Assembly (NCBI RefSeq): GCF_024029335.1 | Contig: NZ_CP097116.1 | Location: forward strand, 1,364,001-1,428,000 | Reading direction: 5' to 3' | Length of the DNA stretch: 64,000 nt | From: Fructilactobacillus myrtifloralis | Lineage (GTDB): Bacteria; Bacillota; Bacilli; Lactobacillales; Lactobacillaceae | Part shown: in pieces, positions 11,294 through 60,420 of the stretch | Numbering within the stretch: the stretch's first letter is position 1 | Layout of the letters: every line of letters begins with the position of its first letter | Position numbers and translations under genes: made by a program | Notes under the pieces: generated by a model | What the model saw: only the letters and a program-made list of their open reading frames with translations | Databases searched by the model: none | Told to the model about the DNA's origin: nothing

Positions 11294-11316
11294 ACCACAG
11301 AAAGCGATTACTACCA

Positions 11317-12558: not shown

Positions 12559-12570
12559 GGGGGTGCGCTA

Positions 12571-15772: not shown

Positions 15773-15773
15773 T

Positions 15774-16535: not shown

Positions 16536-16553
16536 AAGAAAGTAGGAATTGCT

Positions 16554-18017
16554 ATGAATTTTTTCATTAACCAAGCGATGGGTATGGGAAATTCAGGTGT
16601 GGAACACGCCGAATTTTACCGCGCTGCCCGGTTTAGACAAGCCAAGTTACCATTTCGCTTTTTATTTTTAAACCTAGTTCCCGAATTACACCAGGCCATG
16701 GATCGGTGGGGTCTCAAGGATCACGAAGTGTTAAATCTGTGGGAATACCTAGTGCTCGGTGATGAGTACCTGAAAACGGGACTGAAAAAACGGATCAAAG
16801 CGCACAAAGGGACCATGGTAATTGATGGGACCAATACCAACCGGAAACAAGAACTAATCACCGATTCAGGGATATGCGTGGTGCAACACTTCTTTAAGGG
16901 ACCAGATAAGCAACACCCGGACAATCAAATTTTACAGGTTGGCGTTTCACGGGTGGAACTCTATTCGGTGAAAACCGGGGAACGAAAGGTGATGTACCAC
17001 ATTGAAAACGATGTGCACCGTGGACCCAACGTGATTAACATTCATTTGTTTAATGAACACGGTCATCACTTGTTCTTCCGCAACCTATACGATCTGCATC
17101 GCTACTTCTTTGAAAACGTTGACCGGGCTTACCACGGTAAGAGTAATTTCATTATCGACCGGGGTGAATTTGCCGATGACGTTCTCATGGAAGACCGAAT
17201 TCCAGACTCAAAAATCATTTACATTGTGCACGCCGACCAGTTATCCAATCGGGATGATCCCAAGTATCCATTGTGGAATGACCACTACGAATACATGTTG
17301 GAACACATCCATGAGGTGGACCGGGTCGTAACGGCGACTAAATTACAACGAGATGATCTGTTGGTCGACGAACCAAGTGCCAAGGACATCGTAACGGCCA
17401 TCCCAGTGGGAGGAGTTCGTGACGGGGTAACGAAACAGCAGGGACGTAAAGCGCACAAGCCGTTCCGACTCATCACGGCTTCCCGGCTTGCGGCTGAAAA
17501 ACACGTGGACGTGGCGATTAAGGCGGTTGCAAAATTGCACGACCAGGGGAAGGCAATTCAGTTCGACATTTACGGTCAGGGAGAAGAGCAAAAGAAGCTC
17601 GAACAAACCATCAAATACTGCCATGCTGAGGATTACATTCACATGAAGGGTCTTTCCCACGACTTGGAACATGTCTATCCGAAGTATGATGCGTTCATTT
17701 CAACCTCATTTTCAGAAGGATTTGGGCTCACTTACATCGAAGCGTTAAACGCTGGGTTGCCAGTGGTGACATTCAATGCGCGGTTTGGGGCCCAAGAGTT
17801 AGTGCATGATGGGGTGAACGGTTACCTGGTCGATCTCAAGCGGGACGATGATGATTATAACGTTGAACAAATTCAAGGTGCCCTGCAAAAATTACTGAAG
17901 GGGAATAACTACTCCAAGTTACAGGCAGCAACCAGTAAATCGGTCGCAGAATTTCAAGATCACATCACCGCGGATAAATGGAGGGATTTAATCAATGGAT
18001 TACGTACTAGTAAATAA
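16554..18017 (+). CDS. gtfA: SRRP glycosyltransferase GtfA (Gtf1), GlcNAc transferase
   Basis: 487 residues, near the usual 500. GT4-type retaining transferase: N-terminal GxGNSGVEHAEFYRA segment, DUF1975-like insertion in the first half, and the C-terminal nucleotide-sugar site with LITASRLAAEKHVD and SEGFGLTYIEAL (Glu388 and Glu396 as the E-x7-E pair). It adds the first GlcNAc to Ser/Thr of the adhesin stalks in the cytoplasm, using UDP-GlcNAc, and works as a heterocomplex with GtfB. The last 23 bases overlap the gtfB start. Because the partner gene is short here, how GtfA recognises its acceptor is an open question. Confidence 0.94.
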   Translation: MNFFINQAMGMGNSGVEHAEFYRAARFRQAKLPFRFLFLNLVPELHQAMDRWGLKDHEVLNLWEYLVLGDEYLKTGLKKRIKAHKGTMVIDGTNTNRKQELITDSGICVVQHFFKGPDKQHPDNQILQVGVSRVELYSVKTGERKVMYHIENDVHRGPNVINIHLFNEHGHHLFFRNLYDLHRYFFENVDRAYHGKSNFIIDRGEFADDVLMEDRIPDSKIIYIVHADQLSNRDDPKYPLWNDHYEYMLEHIHEVDRVVTATKLQRDDLLVDEPSAKDIVTAIPVGGVRDGVTKQQGRKAHKPFRLITASRLAAEKHVDVAIKAVAKLHDQGKAIQFDIYGQGEEQKKLEQTIKYCHAEDYIHMKGLSHDLEHVYPKYDAFISTSFSEGFGLTYIEALNAGLPVVTFNARFGAQELVHDGVNGYLVDLKRDDDDYNVEQIQGALQKLLKGNNYSKLQAATSKSVAEFQDHITADKWRDLINGLRTSK

Positions 18018-18861
18018 CGTGGTCGCCGATAATCAGTGGCAACAAATTAAAGCGCAAGCGTCGGATCCCAAGCATCCAAATGTGATTTCGTTAGTTTCGG
18101 CGCCGAAGTTAGGCAAGTATTTTGGGGAACCCGGCGTAAATGGCATTAACGTTTTGGATCGGTTAACCCACCGGAAGTATCACCCCGGTCAATACCGATT
18201 CTTCAACGACGTGCCGGTGCCTTATTGGGACAAGGTGTTTGTGAACAAGGATGGGAGTATTTCCATCTATGATCATGGTTCAGAGATTGGCAAGGAATAT
18301 CTCTATCCAAACACCAGAAGAGCGGCGCAGGATGTACGTTACACCAACCCAGATGGCACGATGGATTACATTGAAGAGTATGCCTACGACGGGACGATCT
18401 TCAGTAACCTGTTTTATGCGGAAGATGAAATGTTAGAAATGGTCTTTTATGATCAACAACAACGTCCGGTGGTTCGATACTACCTCTATCAAAAGGTTAT
18501 TAACCTAGTGACGGTGGAAGATCCAGAAACGCATGAGGTCTTAAAGCGGTATGATTCGTTGGATGCCTTTTACAATGATCAACTGCAGAGCATTGTCACT
18601 GCGGATGATACGGTTACGATTGACTACATGGGTGTGGAATTGCTTGCACTTGCCAATACCAAGTCTCACAACATTTTACGGTTAGCCGAAAGTCCGCTTG
18701 ATGATCAAGGACACGTCCGTGGCAACCTGGTTGACATCCTGACGGATCGAATTAAAACCATCCAGACCGTGCAAGTGTCCGCCGACGATTATAAAATTTT
18801 AGAAAAACAGGACCTACCACTTGAAAAAGTTACGATAATTACAGATAATGTAAATATCTAA
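17995..18861 (+). CDS. gtfB: GtfB-like partner of GtfA, apparently C-terminally short
   Basis: 288 residues; GtfB proteins I know of are roughly 430-450. The visible part matches the N-terminal Rossmann half plus the beta-rich insert (segments like KVFVNKDGSISIYDHG, DYIEEYAYDG, HNILRLAE). The second Rossmann lobe appears to be missing, and the reading frame ends in TAA at 18859-18861 with no continuation in any frame before the next gene. GtfB has no full transferase activity of its own; it binds acceptor protein and stabilises GtfA. It overlaps gtfA by 23 bases. The family lengths are from memory, so the truncation needs an alignment. Confidence 0.8.
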   Translation: MDYVLVNNVVADNQWQQIKAQASDPKHPNVISLVSAPKLGKYFGEPGVNGINVLDRLTHRKYHPGQYRFFNDVPVPYWDKVFVNKDGSISIYDHGSEIGKEYLYPNTRRAAQDVRYTNPDGTMDYIEEYAYDGTIFSNLFYAEDEMLEMVFYDQQQRPVVRYYLYQKVINLVTVEDPETHEVLKRYDSLDAFYNDQLQSIVTADDTVTIDYMGVELLALANTKSHNILRLAESPLDDQGHVRGNLVDILTDRIKTIQTVQVSADDYKILEKQDLPLEKVTIITDNVNI

Positions 18862-18961: not shown

Positions 18962-21900
18962 ATGAGTAGATTTAATCAAAAACGTCGCGAGGCTATTTTT
19001 GATAACAATAAAAAAGTCCGCTATCGGATGTATAAAGCCGGGAGAAGGTGGCTGGTTGCCGGAACTGCAACCGTTACTGGACTTGCGGCTAGTTTGTTTT
19101 TAGGTGTGCCCTCGACGTTCGCCGATGCCGCCCAACAAGTCTCCAAACAAGTTGACGAAAATAGTGACCTGTTGATTAGTAATCAAAAGGCCACCATTCC
19201 GTCGACTTCAACTTCTAATAGTGATACTAGTAGTGACAGCACGAGCTCAGTCAGTGAATCAACGACGTCCGAATCAACTAGTTCAGTGAGTGAATCGACT
19301 GATTCAACTTCTAACAGCTCGACGTCAACTTCCAGCACTAGCGAGAGCAAGAGTGACAGTGCGGAAAGTACTTCTACGACTGCTAGTCAGTCCGAAAGTA
19401 CCACTGCTGCTGAAACCCAGGATGCTTCTCAAGTTAGTGAAGTAGGGTCTGCTTCAACTTCAGTTGTGGATGGGTCCATGAACATCCAACTGGCCGCCGC
19501 AAGTAATGACAGTCAGTCGAAGTCAACGTATACCACTTCTGAAATCGATTCCATTAGTAACTCAATTAGCGATGACTACGATTCTCAATCGGCATCAGCT
19601 AGTGAGTCACTTTCGCTTGTTTCAGGTTCACAACTAAATGATGCGTCTGTAGCTGCTAGTGCCAGCAAGTCAACCAGCGCTAGCCAGGTTAAGGATTCGC
19701 AATATAACGCCAGTGTTTCTAATCGGGACCGTTCTTATTCAGAATCTAATAGTCGCGTAGATGGATCATTATCAAAATCTGCTTCTGCTTCCGCTAGCCG
19801 GAGCAAGCTTGGCTTTGACAGTATGAGTCAATCAAACTCAACGTGGCTTGATAGCGCTTCCGCTTCGCATGCTAACAGTACTTCGTACGATTCCCAATGG
19901 TCTTTCGTTTCGGATGCCCTCTCACGGGGAGCTAACTCATTTGAAATTAAGTACCCGAACGGTGGTGCTCCCGTAAGTGAACAAAGATCATTTAAATCAG
20001 AACAAGATTTTCTTAGCATTCAAGCTAGTAACCTTTCATCCGTTGAAAATAGTGCGTTGACTAGCATTAACGATAGCCATATTATCGTTCAGGATTCTGT
20101 TAGTCGGTCTGCAAGCAAGTCTGCATCAGTTAGTGCTTCAAATTCAACGTCGAATTTTGACAACCTAGCTTCTAGCGCTTCCGCTTCTGATAGCAACGTT
20201 AACAAGAGCATTTCTAACTACCAACGTGATTCTGCGCAAGCCAGCATGAATTACGATAAGAGTGTGAGTGCCAGTCAATCGACTAGTCGGCAGTTGAGTA
20301 ACGATTACTCCACGAGTATCGAAGGTTCTAACAGTCAGCTAACTAGTACTTCGGAATACATTAGTAAACTCCGCTCCCAAAGCCTGGAAGCTGGTGTTCT
20401 AGAATCAATGAGTGGATCCGCTAGTCAATCGGCTTCCGTTCTGTCCACTTCAGCAAGTAACAGTTTTTCGTCTTACTCTTCATACCTAAAGAGTAACTCG
20501 ATGAACGAATCGAAAAATTACAGCATTACTAAGAGCCTGACGCTTTCCGAAAGCGAGGTTATTCACAATTACAATAGCGTCGTTGAAAGTGATGCAAGTG
20601 CCCGGGCTTCTCGGATGGGTTCACAATCGAACTCGGTTAGCTTGAGTCAATCAACCTCTGCAAGTCAGTCTGTTTCTGACATGGACGAAGTTTCCAGTCA
20701 ATCACGGAGTGCTTCTACTAGTAGCAGTTTGAGCACGTCAGATCTGAACGAACAATCAACTTCCGCTAGTCGATCAGCTTCAGCAACTTCTGCTAGCACC
20801 ACCGGCGTTGGTTCTGTTAGTGATTCACTCAGCACTTCTGCTTCGGTGAGCGCCAACACGTCTGATTCAACTAGTCGTGAAGCAGTTAACAGTGGCAGTC
20901 TTTCCGCTGAACACTCAATGGAACAGTCACTTTCGCGGAGTCAAGTAAGTGACGATGCGAGCGTTAGTGATTCTAAGAGCGCTTCAGATTCCCGTTCACA
21001 AGCGGATTCATTCTTCCAGTCCTACAGCAAGCGGCAGAGTATGTCGATTTCTGAACAATCTAACTCTGCTTCGAAGTCTACTTACTTTAGCTTGGGCTAC
21101 TCCCTGAGTGACAGTAATAGTATTAATGCAAGCAACGTTTTCAGTAACTACATTTCTACGAGTGCTACTGACTCACGCGCAAGCATGGATAATAGTCTGT
21201 CGACGTCCGCTTCTAAATACTCGACTTCAATGCCGTCCGCAACTTCTGAGTACTTGAGTGACAGTACTTCTAAGAGCAAAGAGTTGATTAACTCCGAAAA
21301 GGCTTCAGTTTCACAAAGTGCTTCCTTGAAGAGTGCTAGTGATTCTAATGTTTCAACTTCAAACTCGAAGTCAATTAGCTTGAGTCAAAAGAGTCTTTCT
21401 GTTGAATCGGCAAGCATTACTTCAGCTTCAGCAAGTCGGTCGTTATCACTTGCAAATAGTGAACAACAATCACTTACTGACCAAGAATCGGCTTCAGCCT
21501 CAGCAACGAGTGCATCAACATCGGCTGCAAACTCCAATTCAGATAGCATTTCCGTGAGTGGTTCGGCCTCAGCCAGTGCTTCCACGAGTTCTTCCTTAAG
21601 TGCCGTTGGAGCTAACAGTATTAGTGCCAGTGTTTCTGGTTCTCTGAGTGCTTCTGGAGTTGCTAACGAATCTGCTTCTGCGAGCGCTTCAACCAATGCT
21701 TCTCAGTCGACTTCAACTTCAATTGCAAACGATTCGCAAAGTCAAAGCAAGCAAGCCTCAACTTCTGCTTCCATTAGTTTGAGTCAATTGAACTCAATCA
21801 GTGACAGCATGAAGGAAGTTGGTTCTGGTACGAACTCTGCCTCTGCTTCTACAAGTGCTTCCACGAGTGCTGAAACCAGCACAACGGCTGCTGACAGTTC

Positions 21901-24900
21901 TTCTATGAGTGCCAGCGTTAGTGATTCATCTTCAGTTAAACACGTTGATGACAGCACAGCGGCTAGTGCTTCCACGAGTGCCAGCGATTCAAACAGTGCA
22001 CAACTCAGCATTTCCGCTGCTAACTCTAGTTCTGATTCGGCTAATGAATCTGTTTCGGCTTCACTAAGTGGTTCTAAGACGGGACCTACAAATGATTCTG
22101 CTAGTGCAAGTGCCTCAGTAAGTGCTAGTGATTCGGCGGTAGCATCTACTAGTCAAAGTCAATCGGCATCTACAAGCATGGCTGAAAAGTCGATGAGTGA
22201 TGCCAGTGCTTCTACGAGTGCTAGTTCTGCCAGTGCCTCAGCCAGTGCTTCGAAGAGCATGTCGGCTGAAAGTAGTAACTCTGCTAGCCAGTCAGCAAAC
22301 AAGAGCACGTCAGCTTCTGCTGCTGATTCAATGAGCAACGCAGCGGTTAGTGATAGTGCCAGCAAGTCAACGAGTCAATCGTTGTCTGAATCTGCTTCTA
22401 ACTCGAAGTCGATTAGTCAATCAGGGATGGACAGTATCTCTGATTCAGAAGCTAAATCAATGAGTGATTCCATTGCTAGTGACAGTATGAGTGCTTCGAA
22501 GAGTACCTCTGAAGCTAGTGATAGTGCCTCAGCTTCAACTAGTTCCGAATCCGCTAGTGCCTCAGCTTCGACAAGTAAGGCAGTTAGCGAAAGCACTTCT
22601 GCGAGTGCTTCAACTTCTGAAAGCGATTCAGTAATGAAGAGTGTTTCAGAATCTGTATCGAAGAGTGGTTCTGGAATGGACTCACAATCAGCAAGCAACT
22701 CTGCTAGCCAAAGTACCTCAACTAGTACTTCAGCTGCGAAGTCAACGAGTGATTCCATCAGCACTTCTGCTTCAATGCAAAGTAAAGCTGACTCGACGAG
22801 CACGTCTAAGAGTGCTTCCACGAGTAAGTCTGATGAAACTTCGATGAGTAACAGTACTTCTACTGCTAACTCCGCAAGTACTTCCGCTTCTAAGAGTGCT
22901 AGCGAATCCGCCAGTGCTTCGAAGAGTCAAAGTGTAAGCATTTCTAATGCTGACTCAACTCCAGGTTCTCGGAGTACCTCAGTAAGTACGTCGATGAGCG
23001 AAGCTTCTGACAGTGCTTCGAAGTCCACGAGTTCCTCGGACTCCTCATCAATGAGTGCCAGCAAGTCGGCTTCCGCAAGTGCGAACTCGAAGTCAACCAG
23101 TGATGCCAGTGCTTCTAACAGTATTGCTTCGAAGAGTACTTCAACTAGCATGTCGATGAGCACCAGTTCATCTGCAAGTAAGTCAGCAAGTCAATCCGCA
23201 ATGGACAGTACGTCTGACTCCGCTGCTAAATCAATGAGCAACTCCGTTGCTAGTGATAGTACGAGTGCTTCCGCAAGTACTTCCGCTAAGAGCGACAGTG
23301 CTTCAACATCAATGAGCAATGCTTCTGATAGTGCCTCGAAGTCCGCGAGCGACTTCGCAAGCAACAGTAAGCAAGCTAGTGAATCAACTTCCATGAGCAA
23401 TTCTGAAGCTAAGAGTCTTTCCGACTCAGTTTCAACGAGTGGATCTGGAACTGATTCAGCCTCAGCAAGCAAATCAGCAGAGCAAAGTGCTTCGATGAGT
23501 ACCTCAGCAGCTGACTCAGCAAGTATCTCTGCCAGCAAATCAGCTTCAATGCAAAGCGATGCAGATTCGATGAGCACGTCTGCGAGTTCCTCAGCTAGTC
23601 AATCTGACGAAACTTCGATGAGCATCAGTACCTCAACTGCGAACTCCGCAAGTACTTCTGCTTCCACGAGTGCTTCAGCATCAGCTAGCGCTTCGAAGAG
23701 TCAAAGTGAAAGCAATGCTTCCAACTCAACTCCAGGATCAGCTAGTGATTCAGTAAGTGTTTCGATGAGCAATGCTTCTGATAGTGCTTCGAAGTCCATG
23801 AGTTTCTCGGACTCCTCATCAATGAGTGCCAGCAAGTCGGCTTCCGCAAGTGCGAACTCGAAATCCACTAGTGATGCTAGTGCTTCTGATAGTGCAGTTT
23901 CAAAGAGTGCTTCGATGAGTACTTCAACGAGCACGAGTGCTTCCGCAAGCAAGTCAGCAAGTCAATCCGCAATGGACAGTACGTCTGACTCTGCTGCTAA
24001 ATCAATGAGCAACTCCGTTGCTAGTGACAGTACGAGTGCTTCCGCAAGTACTTCCGCTAAGAGCGACAGTGCTTCAACATCAATGAGCAATGCTTCTGAC
24101 AGTGCTTCGAAGTCCGCGAGCGACTTCGCAAGCAATAGTAAGCAAGCAAGTGAATCAACTTCCACGAGCAATTCTGAAGCTAAGAGTCTTTCTGACTCAG
24201 TTTCAACGAGTGGATCTGGAACTGATTCAGAATCTGCAAGCAACTCAGCAGAGCAAAGTGCTTCAATGAGTACTTCGGCAGCAATTTCTGCCAGTGATTC
24301 AGCAAGCAAATCAGCTTCAATGCAAAGCGATGCAGACTCGATGAGCACGTCTACGAGTGCCTCAGCTAGTCAATCTGACGAAACTTCGATGAGCATCAGT
24401 ACTTCAACGGTTAACTCTGCAAGTACTTCTGCTTCCACGAGTGCTTCAGCATCAGCTAGCGCTTCGAAGAGTCAAAGTGAAAGCAATGCTTCCAACTCAA
24501 CTCCAGGATCAGCTAGTGATTCAGTGAGTGCTTCGATGAGCAATGCTTCTGATAGTGCTTCGAAGTCCACGAGTTCCTCGGACTCCTCATCAATGAGTGC
24601 CAGCAAGTCGGCTTCCGCAAGTGCGAACTCGAAATCCACTAGTGATGCTAGTGCTTCTGATAGTGCAGTTTCAAAGAGTGCTTCGATGAGTACTTCAACG
24701 AGCACGAGTGCTTCCGCAAGCAAGTCAGCCAGTCAATCCGCAATGGACAGTACGTCTGACTCCGCTGCTAAATCAATGAGCAACTCCGTTGCTAGTGATA
24801 GTACGAGTGCTTCCGCAAGTACTTCCGCTAAGAGCGACAGTGCTTCAACATCAATGAGCAATGCTTCTGATAGTGCCTCGAAGTCCGCGAGCGACTTCGC

Positions 24901-27900
24901 AAGCAACAGTAAGCAAGCTAGTGAATCAACTTCCACGAGCAATTCTGAAGCTAAGAGTCTTTCTGACTCAGTTTCAACGAGTGGATCTGGAACTGATTCA
25001 GCCTCAGCAAGCAACTCAGCAGAGCAAAGTGCTTCAATGAGTACTTCGGCAGCAATTTCTGCCAGTGATTCCGCAAGCAAATCAGCTTCAATGCAAAGCG
25101 ATGCAGACTCAATGAGCACGTCTACGAGTGCCTCAGCTAGTCAATCTGACGAAACTTCGATGAGCATCAGTACTTCAACTGCGAACTCCGCAAGTACTTC
25201 TGCTTCCACGAGTGCTTCAGCATCAGCTAGCGCTTCGAAGAGTCAAAGTGAAAGCAATGCTTCCAACTCAACTCCAGGATCAGCTAGTGATTCAGTGAGT
25301 GCTTCGATGAGCAATGCTTCTGATAGTGCTTCGAAGTCCACGAGTTCCTCGGACTCCTCATCAATGAGCACCAGCAAGTCAGCTTCAGCAAGTGCCAACT
25401 CGAAGTCCGCTAGTGATGCTAGCGTATCAATGAGTAACGCTTCTAACAGTGCTTCCATGAGTGCTTCGATGAGTGCCAGCGCTTCCGCAAGCAAGTCAGC
25501 AAGTCAATCCGCAATGGACAGTTCTTCTGATTCTGCTATGAAGTCGATGAGCAACTCCGTTGCTAGTGAAAGTACCCAAGCTTCGGCAAGTACTTCTGCT
25601 AAGAGTGATAGTGCTTCAATGTCGATGAGTAACGCTTCTGACAGTGCTTCGAAGTCCATGAGTGACTTGGCAAGCAACAGTAAGCAAGCTAGCGAATCAG
25701 CTTCGATGAGTACTTCAACTGTTAAGAGTCTTTCCGACTCAGTTTCAATGAGTGGCTCTGGTAACAACTCAGCCTCAGCAAGTACATCAGCGGCACAAAG
25801 TGCCTCAATGAGTACTTCGGCAGCAATTTCTGCTAGTGATTCAGCAAGTACTTCTGCTTCAATGCAAAGCGATGCTGACTCGAAGAGTACTTCTGCAAGT
25901 GCTTCAGCTAGTCAATCTGACGAAACTTCGATGAGCATCAGTACTTCAACGGTTAACTCCGCAAGTACTTCTGCTTCCACGAGTGCTTCAGCATCAGCTA
26001 GCGCTTCGAAGAGTCAAAGTGAAAGCAATGCTTCCAACTCAACTCCAGGATCAGCTAGTGATTCAGTGAGTGCTTCGATGAGCAATGCTTCTGATAGTGC
26101 TTCGAAGTCCACGAGTTCCTCGGACTCCTCATCAATGAGCACCAGCAAGTCAGCTTCAGCAAGTGCCAACTCGAAGTCCGCTAGTGATGCTAGCGTATCA
26201 ATGAGTAACGCTTCTAACAGTGCTTCCATGAGTGCTTCGATGAGTGCCAGCGCTTCCGCAAGCAAGTCAGCAAGTCAATCCGCAATGGACAGTTCTTCTG
26301 ATTCTGCTATGAAGTCGATGAGCAACTCCGTTGCTAGTGAAAGTACCCAAGCTTCGGCAAGTACTTCTGCTAAGAGTGATAGTGCTTCAATGTCGATGAG
26401 TAACGCTTCTGACAGTGCTTCGAAGTCCATGAGTGACTTGGCAAGCAACAGTAAGCAAGCTAGCGAATCAGCTTCGATGAGTACTTCAACTGTTAAGAGT
26501 CTTTCCGACTCAGTTTCAATGAGTGGCTCTGGTAACAACTCAGCCTCAGCAAGTACATCAGCGGCACAAAGTGCCTCAATGAGTACTTCGGCAGCAATTT
26601 CTGCTAGTGATTCAGCAAGTACTTCTGCTTCAATGCAAAGCGATGCTGACTCGAAGAGTACTTCTGCAAGTGCTTCAGCTAGTCAATCTGACGAAACTTC
26701 GATGAGCATCAGTACTTCAACGGTTAACTCCGCAAGTACTTCTGCTTCCACGAGTGCTTCAGCATCAGCTAGCGCTTCGAAGAGTCAAAGTGAAAGCAAT
26801 GCTTCCAACTCAACTCCAGGATCAGCTAGTGATTCAGTAAGTGCTTCGATGAGCAATGCTTCTGATAGTGCTTCGAAGTCCACGAGCTTCTCAGACGCTA
26901 CGTCAATGAGCACCAGCAAGTCAGCTTCAGCAAGTGCCAACTCGAAGTCCGCTAGTGATGCTAGCGTATCAATGAGTAACGCTTCTAACAGTGCTTCCAT
27001 GAGTGCTTCGATGAGTGCCAGCGCTTCCGCAAGCAAGTCAGCAAGTCAATCCGCAATGGACAGTTCTTCTGATTCTGCTATGAAGTCGATGAGCAACTCC
27101 GTTGCTAGTGAAAGTACCCAAGCTTCGGCAAGTACTTCTGCTAAGAGTGATAGTGCTTCAATGTCGATGAGTAACGCTTCTGACAGTGCTTCGAAGTCCA
27201 TGAGTGACTTGGCAAGCAACAGTAAGCAAGCTAGCGAATCAGCTTCCATGAGTACTTCAACTGTTAAGAGTCTTTCCGACTCAGTTTCAATGAGTGGCTC
27301 TGGTAACAACTCAGCCTCAGCAAGTACATCAGCGGCACAAAGTGCCTCAATGAGTACTTCGGCAGCAATTTCTGCTAGTGATTCAGCAAGTACTTCTGCT
27401 TCAATGCAAAGCGATGCTGACTCGAAGAGTACTTCTGCAAGTGCTTCAGCTAGTCAATCTGACGAAACATCGATGAGCATCAGTACTTCAACGGTTAACT
27501 CCGCAAGTACTTCTGCTTCGAAGAGTGCCAGTGAATCAGCAAGTGCTTCCATGAGTTACAGTGAAAGCATTTCGAAGTACGATTCACAGCCAGGCTCACA
27601 AAGCATGTCTGTAAGTGCTTCGATGAGCAATGCTTCTGATAGTGCTTCGAAGTCCACGAGCTTCTCAGACGCTACGTCAATGAGCACCAGCAAGTCAGCT
27701 TCAGCAAGTGCCAACTCGAAGTCCGCTAGTGATGCTAGCGTATCAATGAGTAACGCTTCTAACAGTGCTTCCATGAGTGCTTCGATGAGTGCCAGCGCTT
27801 CCGCAAGCAAGTCAGCAAGTCAATCCGCAATGGACAGTTCTTCTGATTCTGCTATGAAGTCGATGAGCAACTCCGTTGCTAGTGAAAGTACCCAAGCTTC

Positions 27901-30900
27901 GGCAAGTACTTCTGCTAAGAGTGATAGTGCTTCAATGTCGATGAGTAACGCTTCTGACAGTGCTTCGAAGTCCATGAGTGACTTGGCAAGCAACAGTAAG
28001 CAAGCTAGCGAATCAGCTTCGATGAGTACTTCAACTGTTAAGAGTCTTTCCGACTCAGTTTCAATGAGTGGCTCTGGTAACAACTCAGCCTCAGCAAGTA
28101 CATCAGCGGCACAAAGTGCCTCAATGAGTACTTCGGCAGCAATTTCTGCTAGTGATTCAGCAAGTACTTCTGCTTCAATGCAAAGCGATGCTGACTCGAA
28201 GAGTACTTCTGCAAGTGCTTCAGCTAGTCAATCTGACGAAACTTCGATGAGCATCAGTACTTCAACGGTTAACTCCGCAAGTACTTCTGCTTCCACGAGT
28301 GCTTCAGCATCAGCTAGCGCTTCGAAGAGTCAAAGTGAAAGCAATGCTTCCAACTCAACTCCAGGATCAGCTAGTGATTCAGTAAGTGCTTCGATGAGCA
28401 ATGCTTCTGATAGTGCTTCGAAGTCCACGAGCTTCTCAGACGCTACGTCAATGAGCACCAGCAAGTCAGCTTCAGCAAGTGCCAACTCGAAGTCCGCTAG
28501 TGATGCTAGCGTATCAATGAGTAACGCTTCTAACAGTGCTTCCATGAGTGCTTCGATGAGTGCCAGCGCTTCCGCAAGCAAGTCAGCAAGTCAATCCGCA
28601 ATGGACAGTTCTTCTGATTCTGCTATGAAGTCGATGAGCAACTCCGTTGCTAGTGAAAGTACCCAAGCTTCGGCAAGTACTTCTGCTAAGAGTGATAGTG
28701 CTTCAATGTCGATGAGTAACGCTTCTGACAGTGCTTCGAAGTCCATGAGTGACTTGGCAAGCAACAGTAAGCAAGCTAGCGAATCAGCTTCCATGAGTAC
28801 TTCAACTGTTAAGAGTCTTTCCGACTCAGTTTCAATGAGTGGCTCTGGTAACAACTCAGCCTCAGCAAGTACATCAGCGGCACAAAGTGCCTCAATGAGT
28901 ACTTCGGCAGCAATTTCTGCTAGTGATTCAGCAAGTACTTCTGCTTCAATGCAAAGCGATGCTGACTCGAAGAGTACTTCTGCAAGTGCTTCAGCTAGTC
29001 AATCTGACGAAACATCGATGAGCATCAGTACTTCAACGGTTAACTCCGCAAGTACTTCTGCTTCGAAGAGTGCCAGTGAATCAGCAAGTGCTTCCATGAG
29101 TTACAGTGAAAGCATTTCGAAGTACGATTCACAGCCAGGCTCACAAAGCATGTCTGTAAGTGCTTCGATGAGCAATGCTTCTGATAGTGCTTCGAAGTCC
29201 ACGAGCTTCTCAGACGCTACGTCAATGAGCACCAGCAAGTCAGCTTCAGCAAGTGCCAACTCGAAGTCCGCTAGTGATGCTAGCGTATCAATGAGTAACG
29301 CTTCTAACAGTGCTTCCATGAGTGCTTCGATGAGTGCCAGCGCTTCCGCAAGCAAGTCAGCAAGTCAATCCGCAATGGACAGTTCTTCTGATTCTGCTAT
29401 GAAGTCGATGAGCAACTCCGTTGCTAGTGAAAGTACCCAAGCTTCGGCAAGTACTTCTGCTAAGAGTGATAGTGCTTCAATGTCGATGAGTAACGCTTCT
29501 GACAGTGCTTCGAAGTCCATGAGTGACTTGGCAAGCAACAGTAAGCAAGCTAGCGAATCAGCTTCGATGAGTACTTCAACTGTTAAGAGTCTTTCCGACT
29601 CAGTTTCAATGAGTGGCTCTGGTAACAACTCAGCCTCAGCAAGTACATCAGCGGCACAAAGTGCCTCAATGAGTACTTCGGCAGCAATTTCTGCTAGTGA
29701 TTCAGCAAGTACTTCTGCTTCAATGCAAAGCGATGCTGACTCGAAGAGTACTTCTGCAAGTGCTTCAGCTAGTCAATCTGACGAAACATCGATGAGCATC
29801 AGTACTTCAACGGTTAACTCCGCAAGTACTTCTGCTTCGAAGAGTGCCAGTGAATCAGCAAGTGCTTCCATGAGTTACAGTGAAAGCATTTCGAAGTACG
29901 ATTCACAGCCAGGCTCACAAAGCATGTCTGTAAGTACTTCGATGAGCAACGCTTCTGATAGTGCTTCGAAGTCAACGAGCTTCTCAGACACAACGTCAAT
30001 GAGTACTAGCAAGTCAGCTTCAGCAAGTGCCAACTCGAAGTCCGCTAGTGATGCTAGCGTATCAATGAGTAACGCTTCTAACAGTGCTTCCATGAGTGCT
30101 TCGATGAGTGCCAGCGCTTCGGCAAGCAAGTCAGCAAGTCAATCTGCAATGGATAGTTCTTCTGATTCTGCTATGAAGTCGATGAGCAACTCCGTTGCTA
30201 GTGAAAGTACCCAAGCTTCAGCAAGTACTTCTGCTCAGAGTGACAGTGCTTCAGCATCAATTAGTTCGAAATTAGATAGTGAATCAACTTCTAATGACAA
30301 GGCAGTTAGCGAAAGTGTTAATGCTAGTCAATCGACTTCTATGAGCGCTTCAGTTGCTAAGAGTCAATCGATTTCCGCATCGAAGAGCGGCTCTGGAACT
30401 AATTCTGAATCAGCAAGTACTTCAGCTATGAAGAGTGCTTCTCTCAGTGGTTCAGCAACGACTTCAACCAGTCTTTCTGCTAGTGTTTCGGCCTCAATGG
30501 ACAGTCAAGTAAACTCAAAGAGTGCTTCTGCAAGTGCTTCCACGAGTCAATCTGACGAAACCTCCATGAGTGTCAGTGCTTCAACTGTTAACTCTGCTAG
30601 TGCTTCTGCTTCGAAGAGTGCGAGTGAATCAGCTAGCGCTTCGAAGAGTTACAGTGAAAGCATTTCAAAGTACGATTCACAGCCAGGCTCACAAAGTATG
30701 TCTGTAAGTACTTCAATGAAGGAAGCTTCGAAGAGTGCTTCAGCATCAACGAGCTTGTCTGATTCAACTTCACTGAGTCAAAGTAAGAGTGCTTCTGCTA
30801 GTGATGTTTGGAAGTCAGAAAGCGACGTTAGTGCATCAAATGCAGCTAAAGTTCAAAGCAACTCGAAGAGTACGTCCATGCTGAACTCCACTTCCACGAG

Positions 30901-33160
30901 TCAATCAGTTAGTCAATCGATCGAGAATAGCATTTCTGCTTCAGCAATGCGGTCCTTGAGTAACAAGATTGTTAGTCAAAGTGACAGTGCTTCCTTGAGT
31001 ACCTCGGCTGCTTCCAAGAGCGCTTCAATGTCAACAAGTATGAAGGTTGATAGCGAATCTGCATCTGACAGCATGGCAATTAACAACAGTAAGGAAGCAA
31101 GTCGCTCAACTTCGATGAGTACTTCGACAGTTAAGAGCTTGTCTAACTCAGTTTCATTTAGTGGATCTGGAATGAACTCCGCTTCAGTAAGCATGTCAGC
31201 AGCTCACAGTGCTTCCTTGAGTAGTTCCGCTACTGCTTCAACGAGTCTTTCTGCTAGTGCTTCGGCTTCGATGGAAAGTAACGCTGACTCCTTGAGCACC
31301 TCAGCCAGCGCTTCGACGATCTTGTCTGATCAAGATTCGTTGAGTAAGAGCATTTCGATCTTTAGATCTGCAAGTGACTCTGCTTCAACATCGTCATCGT
31401 TGTCTGCCAGTGCTTCGGCAAGTCAAAGTGCCAGCTTTGGTAAGTACACTTCAAACTCAGGTTCACAAAGTGATTCTTCAAGTGCTTCTATTTCTTACCA
31501 AAGTGAAAGTGCTTCAACTTCAACGTTCTTGTCAAAACAAGCTTCTATGAGTACAAGTACTTCCGCTGCAGTTAGTGAAGTCAAGAAGTCTGAAAGTGAC
31601 TTTAGTGCTTGGAAGAGTGCTACTTCCGTAAGTGGTTCGAAGAGCGCATCGATGAGTGAATCGACTTCAACTAGTAAGTCGGTTAGTCGTTCCGTAATTG
31701 ACAGCACGTCTGACTCAGCAATGCGGTCCTTGAGTCGCGACATTGTTAGTCAAAGTGATAGTGCTTCAGCAAGTACGTCGGCTGCCTCGAAGAGTGCTTC
31801 AACGTCAAGTAGCATGGAATCTGTGAGTGCTTCTGAATCTGCTAGTGCTGCTAACAGTAACAGTAAGCGGGCTAGTCGTTCTAGTTCTATGAGCACCTCA
31901 CAGGCCAAGAGCTTATCAGCTTCTGTTTCATTTCATGGTTCTGGTACTAATTCGGCTTCAACTAGCATGTCAGCAGCAAACAGCGCTTCAGCAAGTATGT
32001 CGGCTGTGAAATCCATGAGTACTTCTGCAAGTACTTCTGGTTCACTAGAAAGCAAGGTCAACTCCATGAGTGGATCGGCTAGTGCTTCCACGAGTCTGTC
32101 TGATAAGACGTCGACGAGTGTCAGTGCTTCTACCATCAACTCGGCAAGCACCTCTGCTTCGACATCATCATCGTTGTCTGCTAGTGCTTCTACTAGTCAT
32201 TTGACAAGCCGTTCAACGTACGCTTCAAACCCTGGATCACAAAGTGATTCAACGAGTGCCTCTGCTTCACAACAAAGTTACAGCGCTTCAAGATCGACGA
32301 GTCTTTCTCAATACACTTCCATGAGTATGAGTCGGTCAGCTTCACTTAGCTTTGTTTCGAAGTCTGCTAGTGATGATAGTGCTTCAACTAGCGCTACTTC
32401 GAAGAGTGCTTCGATGAGTACCTCGATGATTGACTCTGACGCAAGCAGTAAGTCGATGAGTGAATCAGCTATCATTAGTACGTCTGATTCAGCAGCCAAA
32501 TCGACTAGCATCTCAGACGCAAGTGTGAGTGCTTCAGGTTCAACTAGTGCTGCTTCTCGGAGTACAAGTGCTTCAACCTCTGCAAGTATTTCCGGTTCAA
32601 TTAGTAGTTCAATTGTTAACGACAACAATGCTGCTAACAATGGAAATGCTGGGAATAACGGAAATACCGGAACTAACGGTAATATGAATCCAACGCAATC
32701 AAACAACGGCAACGTTGCTGGTGGTAACGGATTTGCACCGGTAATTGGGAACGGAGCCTTAGCAGGTCTCGCAGCCGTTAATGGAAATGCCATTATTCCA
32801 GGCTTGGTTGGTGCAGCTGTGCAACAGTTGGCTACGAATAACAACGGTGGTAATAACCAGAATAATGCTGGCAATGCCAACGCTGCGAACGCAAATGCTA
32901 ACGCACAAGCCAATGCTAATGCGGCGAACGCGAATGCAAATAATCAAAATGCGAGTCGGAAGACTAAGCACAAGAAGCATTCGTCGAAGACGAAGGTTAA
33001 GGACTTTGCTAACAAGCAAAGAATGAACCAAAAGCAACACAAGAACACTAATTATGCAGAACCAATCGCCTTTGCCTTGGCAGGGTTCGGAATTCTTGGA
33101 TTGTTGTTGTTCTTGCTCTTCAAACGGAACAAGGATAATGACGATAATTCTCGAAACTAA
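18962..33160 (+). CDS. Giant serine-rich repeat adhesin 1 (4732 aa)
   Basis: ATG at 18962 follows AAAGGAGCCC. Residues 1-54 are a long signal peptide with the KxYKxGKxW-type motif (VRYRMYKAGRRW) and a hydrophobic core ending near TFADA, the hallmark of SecA2/SecY2 cargo. Then comes a stalk in which about every second residue is serine, with Ala, Thr, Asp, Lys and Met between. Residues ~300-370 are less repetitive; no large globular binding domain is seen. From about residue 1150 the stalk is built of 257/258-residue super-repeats. The C-terminus has an Asn/Ala-rich part, a basic part (KTKHKKHSSKTK) and one membrane span with a charged tail (LLLFLLFKRNK). No LPXTG motif is visible. Likely O-glycosylated by GtfA/GtfB and exposed at the cell surface. 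Confidence 0.95.
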   Translation: MSRFNQKRREAIFDNNKKVRYRMYKAGRRWLVAGTATVTGLAASLFLGVPSTFADAAQQVSKQVDENSDLLISNQKATIPSTSTSNSDTSSDSTSSVSESTTSESTSSVSESTDSTSNSSTSTSSTSESKSDSAESTSTTASQSESTTAAETQDASQVSEVGSASTSVVDGSMNIQLAAASNDSQSKSTYTTSEIDSISNSISDDYDSQSASASESLSLVSGSQLNDASVAASASKSTSASQVKDSQYNASVSNRDRSYSESNSRVDGSLSKSASASASRSKLGFDSMSQSNSTWLDSASASHANSTSYDSQWSFVSDALSRGANSFEIKYPNGGAPVSEQRSFKSEQDFLSIQASNLSSVENSALTSINDSHIIVQDSVSRSASKSASVSASNSTSNFDNLASSASASDSNVNKSISNYQRDSAQASMNYDKSVSASQSTSRQLSNDYSTSIEGSNSQLTSTSEYISKLRSQSLEAGVLESMSGSASQSASVLSTSASNSFSSYSSYLKSNSMNESKNYSITKSLTLSESEVIHNYNSVVESDASARASRMGSQSNSVSLSQSTSASQSVSDMDEVSSQSRSASTSSSLSTSDLNEQSTSASRSASATSASTTGVGSVSDSLSTSASVSANTSDSTSREAVNSGSLSAEHSMEQSLSRSQVSDDASVSDSKSASDSRSQADSFFQSYSKRQSMSISEQSNSASKSTYFSLGYSLSDSNSINASNVFSNYISTSATDSRASMDNSLSTSASKYSTSMPSATSEYLSDSTSKSKELINSEKASVSQSASLKSASDSNVSTSNSKSISLSQKSLSVESASITSASASRSLSLANSEQQSLTDQESASASATSASTSAANSNSDSISVSGSASASASTSSSLSAVGANSISASVSGSLSASGVANESASASASTNASQSTSTSIANDSQSQSKQASTSASISLSQLNSISDSMKEVGSGTNSASASTSASTSAETSTTAADSSSMSASVSDSSSVKHVDDSTAASASTSASDSNSAQLSISAANSSSDSANESVSASLSGSKTGPTNDSASASASVSASDSAVASTSQSQSASTSMAEKSMSDASASTSASSASASASASKSMSAESSNSASQSANKSTSASAADSMSNAAVSDSASKSTSQSLSESASNSKSISQSGMDSISDSEAKSMSDSIASDSMSASKSTSEASDSASASTSSESASASASTSKAVSESTSASASTSESDSVMKSVSESVSKSGSGMDSQSASNSASQSTSTSTSAAKSTSDSISTSASMQSKADSTSTSKSASTSKSDETSMSNSTSTANSASTSASKSASESASASKSQSVSISNADSTPGSRSTSVSTSMSEASDSASKSTSSSDSSSMSASKSASASANSKSTSDASASNSIASKSTSTSMSMSTSSSASKSASQSAMDSTSDSAAKSMSNSVASDSTSASASTSAKSDSASTSMSNASDSASKSASDFASNSKQASESTSMSNSEAKSLSDSVSTSGSGTDSASASKSAEQSASMSTSAADSASISASKSASMQSDADSMSTSASSSASQSDETSMSISTSTANSASTSASTSASASASASKSQSESNASNSTPGSASDSVSVSMSNASDSASKSMSFSDSSSMSASKSASASANSKSTSDASASDSAVSKSASMSTSTSTSASASKSASQSAMDSTSDSAAKSMSNSVASDSTSASASTSAKSDSASTSMSNASDSASKSASDFASNSKQASESTSTSNSEAKSLSDSVSTSGSGTDSESASNSAEQSASMSTSAAISASDSASKSASMQSDADSMSTSTSASASQSDETSMSISTSTVNSASTSASTSASASASASKSQSESNASNSTPGSASDSVSASMSNASDSASKSTSSSDSSSMSASKSASASANSKSTSDASASDSAVSKSASMSTSTSTSASASKSASQSAMDSTSDSAAKSMSNSVASDSTSASASTSAKSDSASTSMSNASDSASKSASDFASNSKQASESTSTSNSEAKSLSDSVSTSGSGTDSASASNSAEQSASMSTSAAISASDSASKSASMQSDADSMSTSTSASASQSDETSMSISTSTANSASTSASTSASASASASKSQSESNASNSTPGSASDSVSASMSNASDSASKSTSSSDSSSMSTSKSASASANSKSASDASVSMSNASNSASMSASMSASASASKSASQSAMDSSSDSAMKSMSNSVASESTQASASTSAKSDSASMSMSNASDSASKSMSDLASNSKQASESASMSTSTVKSLSDSVSMSGSGNNSASASTSAAQSASMSTSAAISASDSASTSASMQSDADSKSTSASASASQSDETSMSISTSTVNSASTSASTSASASASASKSQSESNASNSTPGSASDSVSASMSNASDSASKSTSSSDSSSMSTSKSASASANSKSASDASVSMSNASNSASMSASMSASASASKSASQSAMDSSSDSAMKSMSNSVASESTQASASTSAKSDSASMSMSNASDSASKSMSDLASNSKQASESASMSTSTVKSLSDSVSMSGSGNNSASASTSAAQSASMSTSAAISASDSASTSASMQSDADSKSTSASASASQSDETSMSISTSTVNSASTSASTSASASASASKSQSESNASNSTPGSASDSVSASMSNASDSASKSTSFSDATSMSTSKSASASANSKSASDASVSMSNASNSASMSASMSASASASKSASQSAMDSSSDSAMKSMSNSVASESTQASASTSAKSDSASMSMSNASDSASKSMSDLASNSKQASESASMSTSTVKSLSDSVSMSGSGNNSASASTSAAQSASMSTSAAISASDSASTSASMQSDADSKSTSASASASQSDETSMSISTSTVNSASTSASKSASESASASMSYSESISKYDSQPGSQSMSVSASMSNASDSASKSTSFSDATSMSTSKSASASANSKSASDASVSMSNASNSASMSASMSASASASKSASQSAMDSSSDSAMKSMSNSVASESTQASASTSAKSDSASMSMSNASDSASKSMSDLASNSKQASESASMSTSTVKSLSDSVSMSGSGNNSASASTSAAQSASMSTSAAISASDSASTSASMQSDADSKSTSASASASQSDETSMSISTSTVNSASTSASTSASASASASKSQSESNASNSTPGSASDSVSASMSNASDSASKSTSFSDATSMSTSKSASASANSKSASDASVSMSNASNSASMSASMSASASASKSASQSAMDSSSDSAMKSMSNSVASESTQASASTSAKSDSASMSMSNASDSASKSMSDLASNSKQASESASMSTSTVKSLSDSVSMSGSGNNSASASTSAAQSASMSTSAAISASDSASTSASMQSDADSKSTSASASASQSDETSMSISTSTVNSASTSASKSASESASASMSYSESISKYDSQPGSQSMSVSASMSNASDSASKSTSFSDATSMSTSKSASASANSKSASDASVSMSNASNSASMSASMSASASASKSASQSAMDSSSDSAMKSMSNSVASESTQASASTSAKSDSASMSMSNASDSASKSMSDLASNSKQASESASMSTSTVKSLSDSVSMSGSGNNSASASTSAAQSASMSTSAAISASDSASTSASMQSDADSKSTSASASASQSDETSMSISTSTVNSASTSASKSASESASASMSYSESISKYDSQPGSQSMSVSTSMSNASDSASKSTSFSDTTSMSTSKSASASANSKSASDASVSMSNASNSASMSASMSASASASKSASQSAMDSSSDSAMKSMSNSVASESTQASASTSAQSDSASASISSKLDSESTSNDKAVSESVNASQSTSMSASVAKSQSISASKSGSGTNSESASTSAMKSASLSGSATTSTSLSASVSASMDSQVNSKSASASASTSQSDETSMSVSASTVNSASASASKSASESASASKSYSESISKYDSQPGSQSMSVSTSMKEASKSASASTSLSDSTSLSQSKSASASDVWKSESDVSASNAAKVQSNSKSTSMLNSTSTSQSVSQSIENSISASAMRSLSNKIVSQSDSASLSTSAASKSASMSTSMKVDSESASDSMAINNSKEASRSTSMSTSTVKSLSNSVSFSGSGMNSASVSMSAAHSASLSSSATASTSLSASASASMESNADSLSTSASASTILSDQDSLSKSISIFRSASDSASTSSSLSASASASQSASFGKYTSNSGSQSDSSSASISYQSESASTSTFLSKQASMSTSTSAAVSEVKKSESDFSAWKSATSVSGSKSASMSESTSTSKSVSRSVIDSTSDSAMRSLSRDIVSQSDSASASTSAASKSASTSSSMESVSASESASAANSNSKRASRSSSMSTSQAKSLSASVSFHGSGTNSASTSMSAANSASASMSAVKSMSTSASTSGSLESKVNSMSGSASASTSLSDKTSTSVSASTINSASTSASTSSSLSASASTSHLTSRSTYASNPGSQSDSTSASASQQSYSASRSTSLSQYTSMSMSRSASLSFVSKSASDDSASTSATSKSASMSTSMIDSDASSKSMSESAIISTSDSAAKSTSISDASVSASGSTSAASRSTSASTSASISGSISSSIVNDNNAANNGNAGNNGNTGTNGNMNPTQSNNGNVAGGNGFAPVIGNGALAGLAAVNGNAIIPGLVGAAVQQLATNNNGGNNQNNAGNANAANANANAQANANAANANANNQNASRKTKHKKHSSKTKVKDFANKQRMNQKQHKNTNYAEPIAFALAGFGILGLLLFLLFKRNKDNDDNSRN
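22427..32620 (+). repeat. Super-repeat array in SRRP1, about 14 units of 771 or 774 bp
   Basis: Equivalent positions (the ATGGAC of AMDS or its diverged equivalent) fall at 22427, 23201, 23972, 24743, 25514, 26285, 27056, 27830, 28601, 29375, 30149, 30923, 31697 and 32471. Steps are 771 or 774 bases. Units from about 25.3 to 30.2 kb are almost identical at DNA level; the flanking units are diverged. Each unit carries one Pro-Gly-Ser, in a TPGSA or QPGSQ version; the latter version adds one codon. Assembly collapse or expansion is possible here. Confidence 0.93.
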
Positions 33161-33233: not shown

Positions 33234-33348
33234 ATAATTAGTGCTGATTGATAATCCTTATTTAATAATTGTATTATCCGAAAAATAGCGTATAATGAGT
33301 AAATCTAAGGTAATTATCAGAAAGCTAATTAGAAAGGGGTGCGGGATT

Positions 33349-36300
33349 ATGAAGAACTTCAACCAACAACGATTTGATGAATTATTCGCGAACAATCAAA
33401 AAGTGCGGTATCGGATGTATAAATCGGGAAAACGCTGGTTAATTGCAGGCACAGCTACGCTTAGCGGAGCTGCCGCCACGATTTGGTTGGGGACTCCGGT
33501 CATAATGGCCGAAGTTACTCCGACCGTTAATCGCGAACTAACCGATAAAGATCAAGTCCTGGTTAATGAAACTTCTTTAACGATTCCGGCCCATTCAGAA
33601 ACAGAATCGGAGGCTTCGTCAACTACAACGAGCTCATCCCTCCCAACTAGTTCGGTTAGTACCCAGACTGCAACGGAGACTGCTGAAAAAACGGTCGATT
33701 CGCAAAGTGCAGCAACTTCAGTAGGGGATCAGCAACCAAGCGAGTCCCAAACTTCACCAGCCCAAAGTAATCAACTGGCAGACCAACCAAGTCAGGAAGT
33801 AACCAGTCAAGTCACAGGGACAGCCACGCAGCCAAGTAGGAGTGATCAGACCGTTACTAACTCGACGAGTGAGCCAGCTCGTTCACAGTCGGAAGCACCA
33901 GCAACTAGTAATTCAGTGTCCACAACAGGTACAACTGCTGAGCAGTCGGTGAGTGATTCTGAAGTCTCAAATACTACTAATCACAGTGATTCAGAAGCGA
34001 ATAGCCGGGATGGTTCATTTGATAGCAGTGCAACTTCGCAAGCTTCTGCGAGTGAGCAGAATGACGCCCAAATTGAGCACTCGTTATCTGAAAACCAATC
34101 CATGAGTCTGGTAACAGCTGATTCACTAGCTGCTTCAACCAGTGCTTCTGAACTTCATGGACAAGCATTGGCAGTTACGAACTCGTCAACTGTGGAGAAC
34201 CGGAGTGATTTTCCGACTGGTCCAGCGGGGGAAAACAAGCAAGTAAATATTTTTATGGATGCAATTGATCACGCGTTAAAGCTAGTTAACTCGAGCTTGG
34301 CTGAACTGGGGATTTCGGCCAACGTTGATAACGTTTTGAGTGGTAATGATTACATCTATGACGGTAATTCCGGCTCAATTCAAATTAGAACCAGTCGGGG
34401 TTGGTTTAACATCTTTGGCAACCAGACTTCCAATCTTTACATTTGGAATCCGACTGCAAACGGGGGTGCTGGCGCTTGGGAACTGGTGGGTGCCTATACA
34501 ACCACCGATTATAATCAGGACGTTACGGTTCAAATTAACCCTGCCGACTATGGGCTTAACCCGGGGGATGAAATGTATTTTCAAGCGGGCGTACAAAGTC
34601 GGGATTTAGCTAATCGAGTTGCCGATTACATTATCAGTCAATTTGGCAATAATTTGATTGACCGGGTGTTTAGACGGTCGCTCGAGGATGCGGTTAATGC
34701 TTATAATGCCGTTGTCGGCATTGCCAACAGTGAGTCTTATTCGAAAGTATTGGGCTTACCAGTGGTGCTGAATTTCCCGTCGCTGTCGGCCTCTGCTTCG
34801 GGCAGCTTGCATGATTCATTGGCAACGTCTTTATCAGAAAGTATGTCAACGAGCTGGGGATCAGAGTCGCAAAGGTTAACCCCGTCGCAGTTGGCTTCTT
34901 TGAGTGGATCGCAAGCTGATTCGATTCAGGAGAGTCTCAGTAACTTACGGAGTCTTTCGCATGCGATTGATTTCAGCATTTCCTATACATCGTTAGATAT
35001 TCCAAGTTTGATGACGTCGGCATCCATTGTTAATTCAATGAGCATCCAAACGTCACGGTTACACTCCTATACCTCAAGTTTTCTTGGGGATAATCAGCTG
35101 GAAATCAGTTCATCGCTAAGTGTGAAGTATTCTGAGGAAGCCAGCACTAGTTATCAAAGTAGCTTACAAGCTGCCCAAGCGTTACAAGCCCAATTGGATT
35201 CGCAACTAACGTCGGCCAGTGATTCGCTTGACCTACAAGCCAACTCAGCCTTTTATTCAACTAGTACAGCAACGAGTCAGGCATTTCAAACTTCGGTCCA
35301 GCATTCCCAATCCACGTCGCAGTCAATCGTAGATGCAAGTGGGGCGGTTAGTGCGTATAATTCCACGAGCTATAGTGTGTCTAAATCACGGAGTGAGCAC
35401 GATGTATTACCATTTTGGGTATGGGGTCGGGCTTCTGATTCAATGTCCATGTCAGATGCCTATTCAACCGAGTATTCGATTGTGAACTCGCGGAATCAGG
35501 CCCCACAGTCGAAGCGGACGTCCCAGTCGATTGCAACTTCGCTTTCGCAGTCCTTGCGGGGCAGTGCACAATTGTCAGCGTCAACTAGTCAATCTTTGAT
35601 GGAATCTAGCAGTGCTTCAACTAGTACCTCGATCTCAACGCCAGCTTCGGTAGCCACCTCAATTTCACAGGTGGCTTCGACGGCTTATAATCAATCGTTG
35701 ATCGCAAGTTTAGCATTGTACTACGCTTCGCTAAGCATTTCGGATAGTCGTGAAGCATCTGACGTGGCTAGTGCATCAGCACAAGCAAGTACCAATGAGA
35801 TGCGCGCTTCAGCAGCGGCTTCAACTTCAAGTAGTCAATCTGCGAACCAGAGCCAGTCCCAATCCGTCTTAGCAGCAAGGGCCGGTGAATCTAGCTATGA
35901 TTCGGCAGTAGCCTCTGACAGTGCTTCAACCTCGGATTGGACTAGTCAAGCGGCAGCTACCAGTGCCTCTCTGTCGGCAGCAACGTCATTAAGTAGTCAG
36001 AACCAGATGGACGCAATGAGTACGTCCGCACGACGGTCAGTGAATGCGAGCCTTTCGATGTCGTTGGCAACCAGTCAAGCGGTGCAAATGAGTACTTCTG
36101 CTTCTGCAGCGGATTCGATGAATGCACAATCGGAGAATACGGATAGTCGGGGATCAGAATCGCGAAGTTCCTCGTTAGAACAAAGCAGGATTAATTCATT
36201 TTCAACCTCAAGACGGATGAGTCAAAGCGGGGGAGCCTCAGCTTCATTTAGTTTGAGTGCGCAGCAGCAAAGTTGGCGATCGGCTAGTCGGTCAGTTTCG

Positions 36301-59154: not shown

Positions 59155-59205
59155 ATGATTAAATTTATATAATTACTTTTTTTGATATTTTAAGGTGGAT
59201 ATTTG

Positions 59206-60411: not shown

Positions 60412-60420
60412 TAGAACGCA

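Follow-up and report, generated by a model that had tools for sequence, protein, structure and literature searches.

The SRRP1 gene of Fructilactobacillus myrtifloralis encodes a serine-rich protein in which a unit of about 258 residues recurs in tandem, nearly identical from copy to copy in the middle of the array and diverged at both ends, raising the question of how such an array is formed and kept alike. The window analysed was a stretch of 64,000 nucleotides (bases 1364001–1428000) of the host genome (G000), which is a single contig of 1,458,675 bases. The features of the window are listed in Table 1. Very probably, the array is the recombining stalk, with a homogenised core and drifting ends, of a serine-rich surface protein that uses the accessory Sec system for export.

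Table 1. Features of the SRRP1 locus (window coordinates)
Feature	Position	Strand	Evidence
Accessory Sec and glycosylation genes SecA2, SecY2, Asp1, Asp2, Asp3, GtfA-like, GtfB-like	8939..18861	+	Pfam, NCBIfam
SRRP1, serine-rich surface protein gene, 4732 aa	18962..33160	+	open frame
Possible further, more decayed unit left of array, aa 811–1040	21392..22081	+	unit profile score 56.0
U0, left edge unit, 257 aa	22190..22960	+	61% to best sister
U1–U3, left core, three 257-aa units	22961..25273	+	90–97% mutually, 79–87% to U4–U9
U4 and U5, identical 257-aa units	25274..26815	+	771/771 bases equal
U6–U9, T/Q alternating, 258, 257, 258 and 258 aa	26816..29908	+	joints T, Q, T, Q at unit starts
U10, mosaic border unit, 258 aa	29909..30682	+	identity by column
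U11 and U12, right edge units, 258 aa each	30683..32230	+	67% to best sister
U13, partial right edge unit, 130 aa	32231..32620	+	59% to best sister
Duplicated 1545-bp two-unit block, copy 1	26132..27676	+	2111-bp exact match
1545-bp block, copy 2	27677..29221	+	exact matches at lags 1545 and 3090
SRRP2, second serine-rich gene, 3646 aa, 138-bp repeats, outside array	33295..44235	+	

SRRP1 directly follows the genes SecA2-SecY2-Asp1-Asp2-Asp3-GtfA-like-GtfB-like and is itself followed by SRRP2. Pfam cut-offs were passed in this gene group for SecA, SecY, Asp1, Asp2, Asp3 and one GT1 domain, and NCBIfam equivalog cut-offs for SecA2, Asp1 and Asp2; SecY2, Asp3 (66.7 vs 67.25), GtfA (237.6 vs 574.6) and GtfB (31.6 vs 338.3) scored below the latter. 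Accessory Sec and glycosyltransferase genes thus adjoin SRRP1, as they do SRRPs (serine-rich repeat proteins), with SecY2, GtfA and GtfB sub-cut-off in NCBIfam. Both SRRP1 and SRRP2 carry a KxYKxGKxW signal, above the cut-offs of PF19258 and TIGR03715 in SRRP1, where it corresponds to the long signal peptide, here putatively cleaved, that is a hallmark of SRRPs. The C-terminus of SRRP1 consists of a hydrophobic stretch and a basic tail. An LPxTG motif was absent anywhere in SRRP1 of G000 and of a second species (G003), and in the array-bearing frame of a third (G007). SRRP1 is therefore described as SRRP-like and kept out of the canonical SRRPs because LPXTG is missing, though the relative in F. 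lindneri has one. The host genome encodes one sortase (5149–5805), the sole Sortase-family match.

Apart from the signal, the Pfam search assigned no domain to SRRP1. AlphaFold2 modelled residues 200–472, from an alignment of three sequences only, as long helices with a mean pLDDT of 50, and neither Pfam nor AlphaFold2 found a ligand-binding domain ahead of the array. One long helix was predicted before the array at residues 399–471 (20156–20374; block pLDDT ~70–84). NCBIfam matches of SRRP1 and SRRP2 to ClfA, SdrC and similar proteins were far under their cut-offs and were taken as effects of composition.

Some observations concern the surroundings. SRRP2 (to 44235) is without LPxTG, like SRRP1 (to 33160). 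The motif is missing also from SRRP1 and SRRP2 of G003 and from one protein of another genome (G001), and is present in G004 and F. lindneri. A second locus of the host genome (G000:C1, ~819–832 kb) encodes two serine-rich proteins ending with LPQTG. Antisense to SRRP2 lies an open frame of 2382 residues (36345–43493, minus strand), probably a by-product of serine codons and not a gene. At the right end of the window, an AbiH-family gene (phage abortive infection) adjoins a phage-type integrase (59203–61854, ~34% GC), and this region is possibly a mobile island.

The array was delimited by self-comparison. Across the 22.0–32.7 kb stretch as a whole, the two best self-matches were at lags of 771 and 774 bases, at which 58% and 53% of positions agreed. 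Units were cut at a recurring Pro-Gly-Ser joint and aligned almost gap-free. The array (22190–32620) contained 13 full units of 257 or 258 residues and a partial unit of 130 residues, a count derived from one assembly. The preliminary description, which had placed about 14 units at 771 or 774 bp from 22427 onwards, was thus borne out, with a start slightly further to the left. A further unit, in a more decayed state, may lie to the left of the array: its profile score of 56.0 compared with at most 46.6 for other serine-rich proteins in the same search, and it gave a weak match in the genome search too.

Identity to the best sister, from U0 to U13, was 61, 92, 97, 97, 100, 100, 100, 98, 100, 99, 82, 67, 67 and 59%. 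U4 and U5 did not differ at any of 771 bases, nor U6 and U8 at any of 774, and DNA identity among U4–U9 was 94–100%. U4 and U6 differed by 11 synonymous and 13 replacement codons; U0 and U9 differed by 75 and 97, respectively. The centre was clearly more alike than the edges in this self-alignment, silent sites included, just as had been proposed from the first inspection of the sequence.

The array had also been called a higher-order repeat. Inside the unit no sub-repeat was detected among the non-serine residues of seven units (P 0.18–0.86 against 200 shuffles each), and the same measure returned a clear 46-residue peak from a stretch of SRRP2 used as positive control. With no internal period in any of the seven units, a strict higher-order repeat was dropped; the array is a long tandem repeat, to which the term "higher-order" applies only at the level of a two-unit block. 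In SRRP2 the unit of 46 residues (138 bp) is not homogenised like that of SRRP1, the longest exact self-match being 80 bp at lag 138.

The two-unit block was evident from exact matches. The largest exact self-match was 2111 bp at lag 1545 (26132–28242 vs 27677–29787), and 566 bp of it recurred at lag 3090 (26132–26697 again at 29222–29787). The second-largest, at lag 771, covered 884 bp (25184–26067). When recombination in a shared stretch duplicates a block in tandem, the resulting exact match is as long as the block plus that stretch, and the two matches decompose accordingly (2111 = 1545 + 566; 884 = 771 + 113). The duplication of a 1545-bp block, inferred earlier from alternating unit types, was thus confirmed and its borders are now given in Table 1. 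The alternation of T and Q joints together with a silent marker (codon column 145, TCC/TCG) was found as claimed. The two types, TPGSA (257 residues) and QPGSQ (258), had been said to differ by one codon, which holds for their length; differences also occur at about 20 codon columns flanking the joint on either side.

Matches of this kind invite the suspicion that assembly created part of the near-identity of the core, by collapsing or expanding reads, and that the true number of units is another one. Exact repeats of 2111 bp are indeed hard to assemble from short reads, but a genome in one contig suggests that long reads were used, and the order of the markers in U6–U9 is consistent. In G003, also one contig, a similar array has core units that differ at many sites (87–98% identity), so arrays of this kind are not tied to a single assembly. 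We consider an artefact unlikely.

A search of 10 Fructilactobacillus genomes, the host included, with one unit gave matches in four of them, in many places in G000, G007 and G003 and in one place in F. lindneri (G009). Full units numbered 13, 6 and 12 in G000, G007 and G003, respectively, so that the variation in unit number that had been foreseen between strains was found as variation between three species. The GtfB-like protein of G007 is 94% identical to that of G000, and that of G003 82%. One of the six full units of G007 has a 34-residue deletion, and SRRP1 of this species is frameshifted ahead of the array; given the frameshift, G007 may perhaps do without SRRP1. Its SRRP2 is split in two frames by one in-frame stop (L021:1-20000). 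The single match in F. lindneri is a stretch 62% identical to unit residues 43–251. After its GtfB-like gene F. lindneri has a serine-rich remnant (L044:12423-14087), and F. florum (L040) has no serine-rich frame of at least 450 residues among those listed in the fetched stretch.

Leading periods were compared across 20 serine-rich frames of at least 450 residues from the fetched loci, one F. lindneri record being represented twice. Only in SRRP1 of G000, G003 and G007 was 771/774 bp the leading period. Most other frames led with 42 to 345 bp and one showed no period. Long leading lags were also seen in F. lindneri (747), Weissella minor (1035), W. uvarum (1269) and one G004 protein (1272); therefore, long units are not unique to SRRP1.

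Units of the three species were then compared by position (numbered by genome, so that U10 is G000_10). The first and last units resembled their positional counterparts in other species and not their sisters. At the left end, G000_00 shared 88% identity with G007_00 and 71% with G003_00. At the right end, G000_11, G000_12 and G000_13 were 92, 91 and 92% identical to G007_04, G007_05 and G007_06, and the partial unit G000_13 was 69% identical to G003_12. The positional likeness of the right-hand full units did not extend to G003: G003_10 and G003_11 were 61–64% identical to G000_11 and G000_12, no higher than many unlike pairs, and in the tree G003_11 joined the right-hand units of the other species with 67% support and G003_10 the G003 core with 70%.

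Core units behaved in the opposite way. Units 02–09 of G000 and G003 were 66–69% identical between the genomes (64 pairs), against 81–100% within G000 and 87–98% within G003 (28 pairs each). The cores of G000 and G007 were 80–84% identical (16 pairs), under the values of their end units (88–92%). In the tree, G007_01 and G007_02 stood beside G000_01–03 inside the G000 core clade (support 86–99), and G007_03 paired with G000_10. As G007_01–03 were placed among G000 units, turnover since the split of G000 and G007 is therefore incomplete. This grouping, and the identity of just 79–87% between U1–U3 and U4–U9, set limits on the homogenisation of the core.

Two units were mosaics. U10 was 91–98% identical to U9 in columns 1–120, 52–67% in columns 121–210 and 86–91% in the remainder, and its part from column 121 onwards was 81–96% identical to G007_03. 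G003_10 departed from the G003 core after about column 60. These mosaic units mark the borders of the recombining zone. A pattern of concerted evolution is now shown across species, in that ends match by position and the core by species. Together with the anatomy of the exact matches, this concerted evolution in three species supports the earlier proposal of unequal recombination.

The same pattern bears on whether the exchange continues or whether each lineage duplicated its units in a single recent episode. Each of the two exact blocks could have arisen from one event not long ago; however, the graded identities (92% for U1, 97% for U2–U3 and 94–100% for U4–U9) need several events of different age, as do the mosaic units in G000 and G003 and the mixed joint types in G000 and G007. 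A single burst per lineage is accordingly very unlikely.

The composition of the unit was highly ordered. Serine made up 43% of the array, and 78% of serines were followed by another two residues on, in keeping with the long stretch of SRRPs in which serine alternates with Ala, Val, Thr and other residues. Conservation was counted over eight pairs of diverged units read both ways, pairs which share units and are not independent: serine was kept at 904/964 TCN codons (94%) and 722/780 AGY codons (93%), alanine at 364/610 (60%) and threonine at 124/298 (42%). In pairs of TCN serines the third base differed in 254/440 (58%). Silent sites have thus diverged far while the serines stayed, indicating that selection keeps the placing of serine; on these counts, the serine positions are evidently under strong selection.

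Such selection could in principle, acting on the protein and without recombination, have made the central units alike. Part of the protein likeness is selected, as serine positions are strongly so, but the identity of U4 with U5 and of U6 with U8 includes silent sites, whereas diverged units differ in the TCN third bases counted above. Moreover, the G000 and G003 cores are just 66–69% identical, so no fixed sequence is demanded, and silent identity was found to be high in the core against the edges, which contradicts selection as the only cause. This explanation is extremely improbable, and recombination among the core units remains the preferred one.

Non-serine doublets interrupt the alternation of serine near residues 15, 42, 49, 56, 97, 110, 121 and 198. 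All eight recur within two residues, indels allowed, in the 28 full units other than those at the head of an array; the three first units share mainly the second-half doublets, and T-type units have a ninth at 253. In each of seven units tested, 7–10 of 10 breaks coincided with those of U9, a level reached by 0–6 of 2000 shuffles of the serine steps. These breaks were rejected as evidence of function, since shared descent without odd-length indels suffices to explain them; they are evidence of common descent. Five indels were found away from the joint, all even in length: 34, 2 and 4 residues in single units, 2 residues in the partial unit that ends the array in each of the three species, and 4 residues before the array. 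A rule of even-length indels was likewise not adopted, the number being small and other serine-rich proteins having periods of odd residue number (345, 747, 1035 and 1269 bp).

A further reading of these data is that the stalk is a position-coded glycan lattice rather than a loose spacer. Serines would form a two-residue lattice that slips out of phase at eight fixed positions in every 258-residue unit, and the breaks would act like defects, which move by at most two residues in diverged units, persist and are common to three species. If the glycosylated chain is extended, each break would flip the sugar-bearing face, and the 258-residue unit would be a glycan-pattern repeat copied whole by recombination. 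We regard this reading as doubtful. The array, with its long units and conserved placing of serines, makes the distinction between a glycosylated stalk as a mere spacer and as a patterned surface testable.

The joints between units offered another candidate for function. In G000, PGS occurred at 12/13 joints and SGS at the remaining one, and all 12 prolines of the array were at unit joints. Over the three species, proline was present at 28/31 joints and PGS at 26/31, the other joints being SGS in U12 and its G007 orthologue, RTGS in G003_11, and PSS in G007_01 and G003_01. Such figures would fit a functional hinge or turn every 258 residues, with the unit existing to space it. Most joints, however, are recent copies of one another, so the retentions are not independent, and the SGS, RTGS and PSS variants do occur. 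Among 11 diverged representatives, residues G161, G163, D216 and T107 were kept in 11/11, more conserved than the joint proline (7/9 of those having a residue there). Structure prediction of one unit (AlphaFold2, U9 and 27 aligned units, modelled without sugars) found no fold: mean pLDDT was 33.6 and no residue reached 50. With the unit predicted unfolded throughout, no rigid segments were seen that a hinge could join, and the regular Pro-Gly-Ser hinge suggested in the preliminary description was not upheld. We judge a hinge improbable.

The history most consistent with these results is as follows. An ancestral unit of ~258 residues would have been tandemly duplicated before the three species split. 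Homologous recombination of misaligned copies would then add, remove and homogenise core units in frame; the data do not distinguish unequal crossing-over from gene conversion. The end units would seldom recombine and would evolve like single-copy sequence. The recombination enzyme is presumably RecA, the gene of which is present in the host genome. The array would serve as the stalk of a surface protein rich in serine and exported via the adjoining accessory Sec system, and O-glycans would be added to its serines by GtfA/GtfB, as the adjoining genes and the conserved serines suggest. Unit number would set how far the protein reaches. An extended chain measures 0.3 nm per residue, or very roughly 75–80 nm per unit if fully extended. 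The length of the stalk likely changes by recombination while the serine lattice stays intact. Slowly changing ends and a recombining core can be read side by side in one gene of three species, making the process easy to follow.

The literature offers two groups of proteins for comparison. Passages of an SRRP review give repeats of 10–20 residues, a repeat number variable between species and strains, and an LPXTG anchor, and name Lactobacillus fructivorans among SRRP-bearing species (PMC6973325). The serine-rich region is given as 400–4000 residues in a paper on PsrP (PMC3909270), the serine-rich region is described as an extended stalk in parts of a streptococcal review (PMC7661464), and repeats are noted to harm assembly in sections of a PsrP survey (PMC10269691). 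Our search of the open literature found no paper on Fructilactobacillus serine-rich proteins, none on concerted evolution of bacterial serine-rich repeats, and no long-unit SRRP among the matches listed (one listing being the best 15 of 164), from which absence from print is not claimed. Like SRRPs such as that of Lactobacillus reuteri, as far as covered in those passages (PMC6973325), SRRP1 adjoins accessory Sec genes and has serine at alternate residues and a very long second serine-rich region. Unlike the SRRPs described there (PMC6973325), its unit is 258 residues long with no detectable sub-repeat, LPXTG is missing, and a folded binding region was not found before the array.

The second group is that of the Periscope Proteins, for which sections of two papers describe tandem repeats near-identical at the DNA level, with a number proposed to vary by intragenic recombination and to set projection (PMC8201768, PMC9704523). 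Like these, SRRP1 has an array of highly identical DNA, with high-identity tandem repeats at U4–U9. Its unit number differs between three species. The Periscope repeats, as presented in those sections, are folded domains, whereas the SRRP1 unit is predicted to be unfolded, is serine-rich and is presumably glycosylated. On the proposed reading, the SRRP1 array would act in the manner of a periscope, but in a serine-rich protein and with a long unit for which no fold is predicted. Among its own relatives, the SRRP1 orthologues of G003 and G007 have the same 258-residue unit but 12 and 6 full units instead of 13, and the relative in F. lindneri has a frame of 555 residues only, ending with LPQTG, compared with the 4732 residues of SRRP1 without LPxTG. 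Length-variable adhesin stalks are already known, and what is new here is the 258-residue serine-rich unit and the missing LPXTG; a serine-rich stalk can thus consist of units far beyond 10–20 residues, in which selection keeps the placing of serine.
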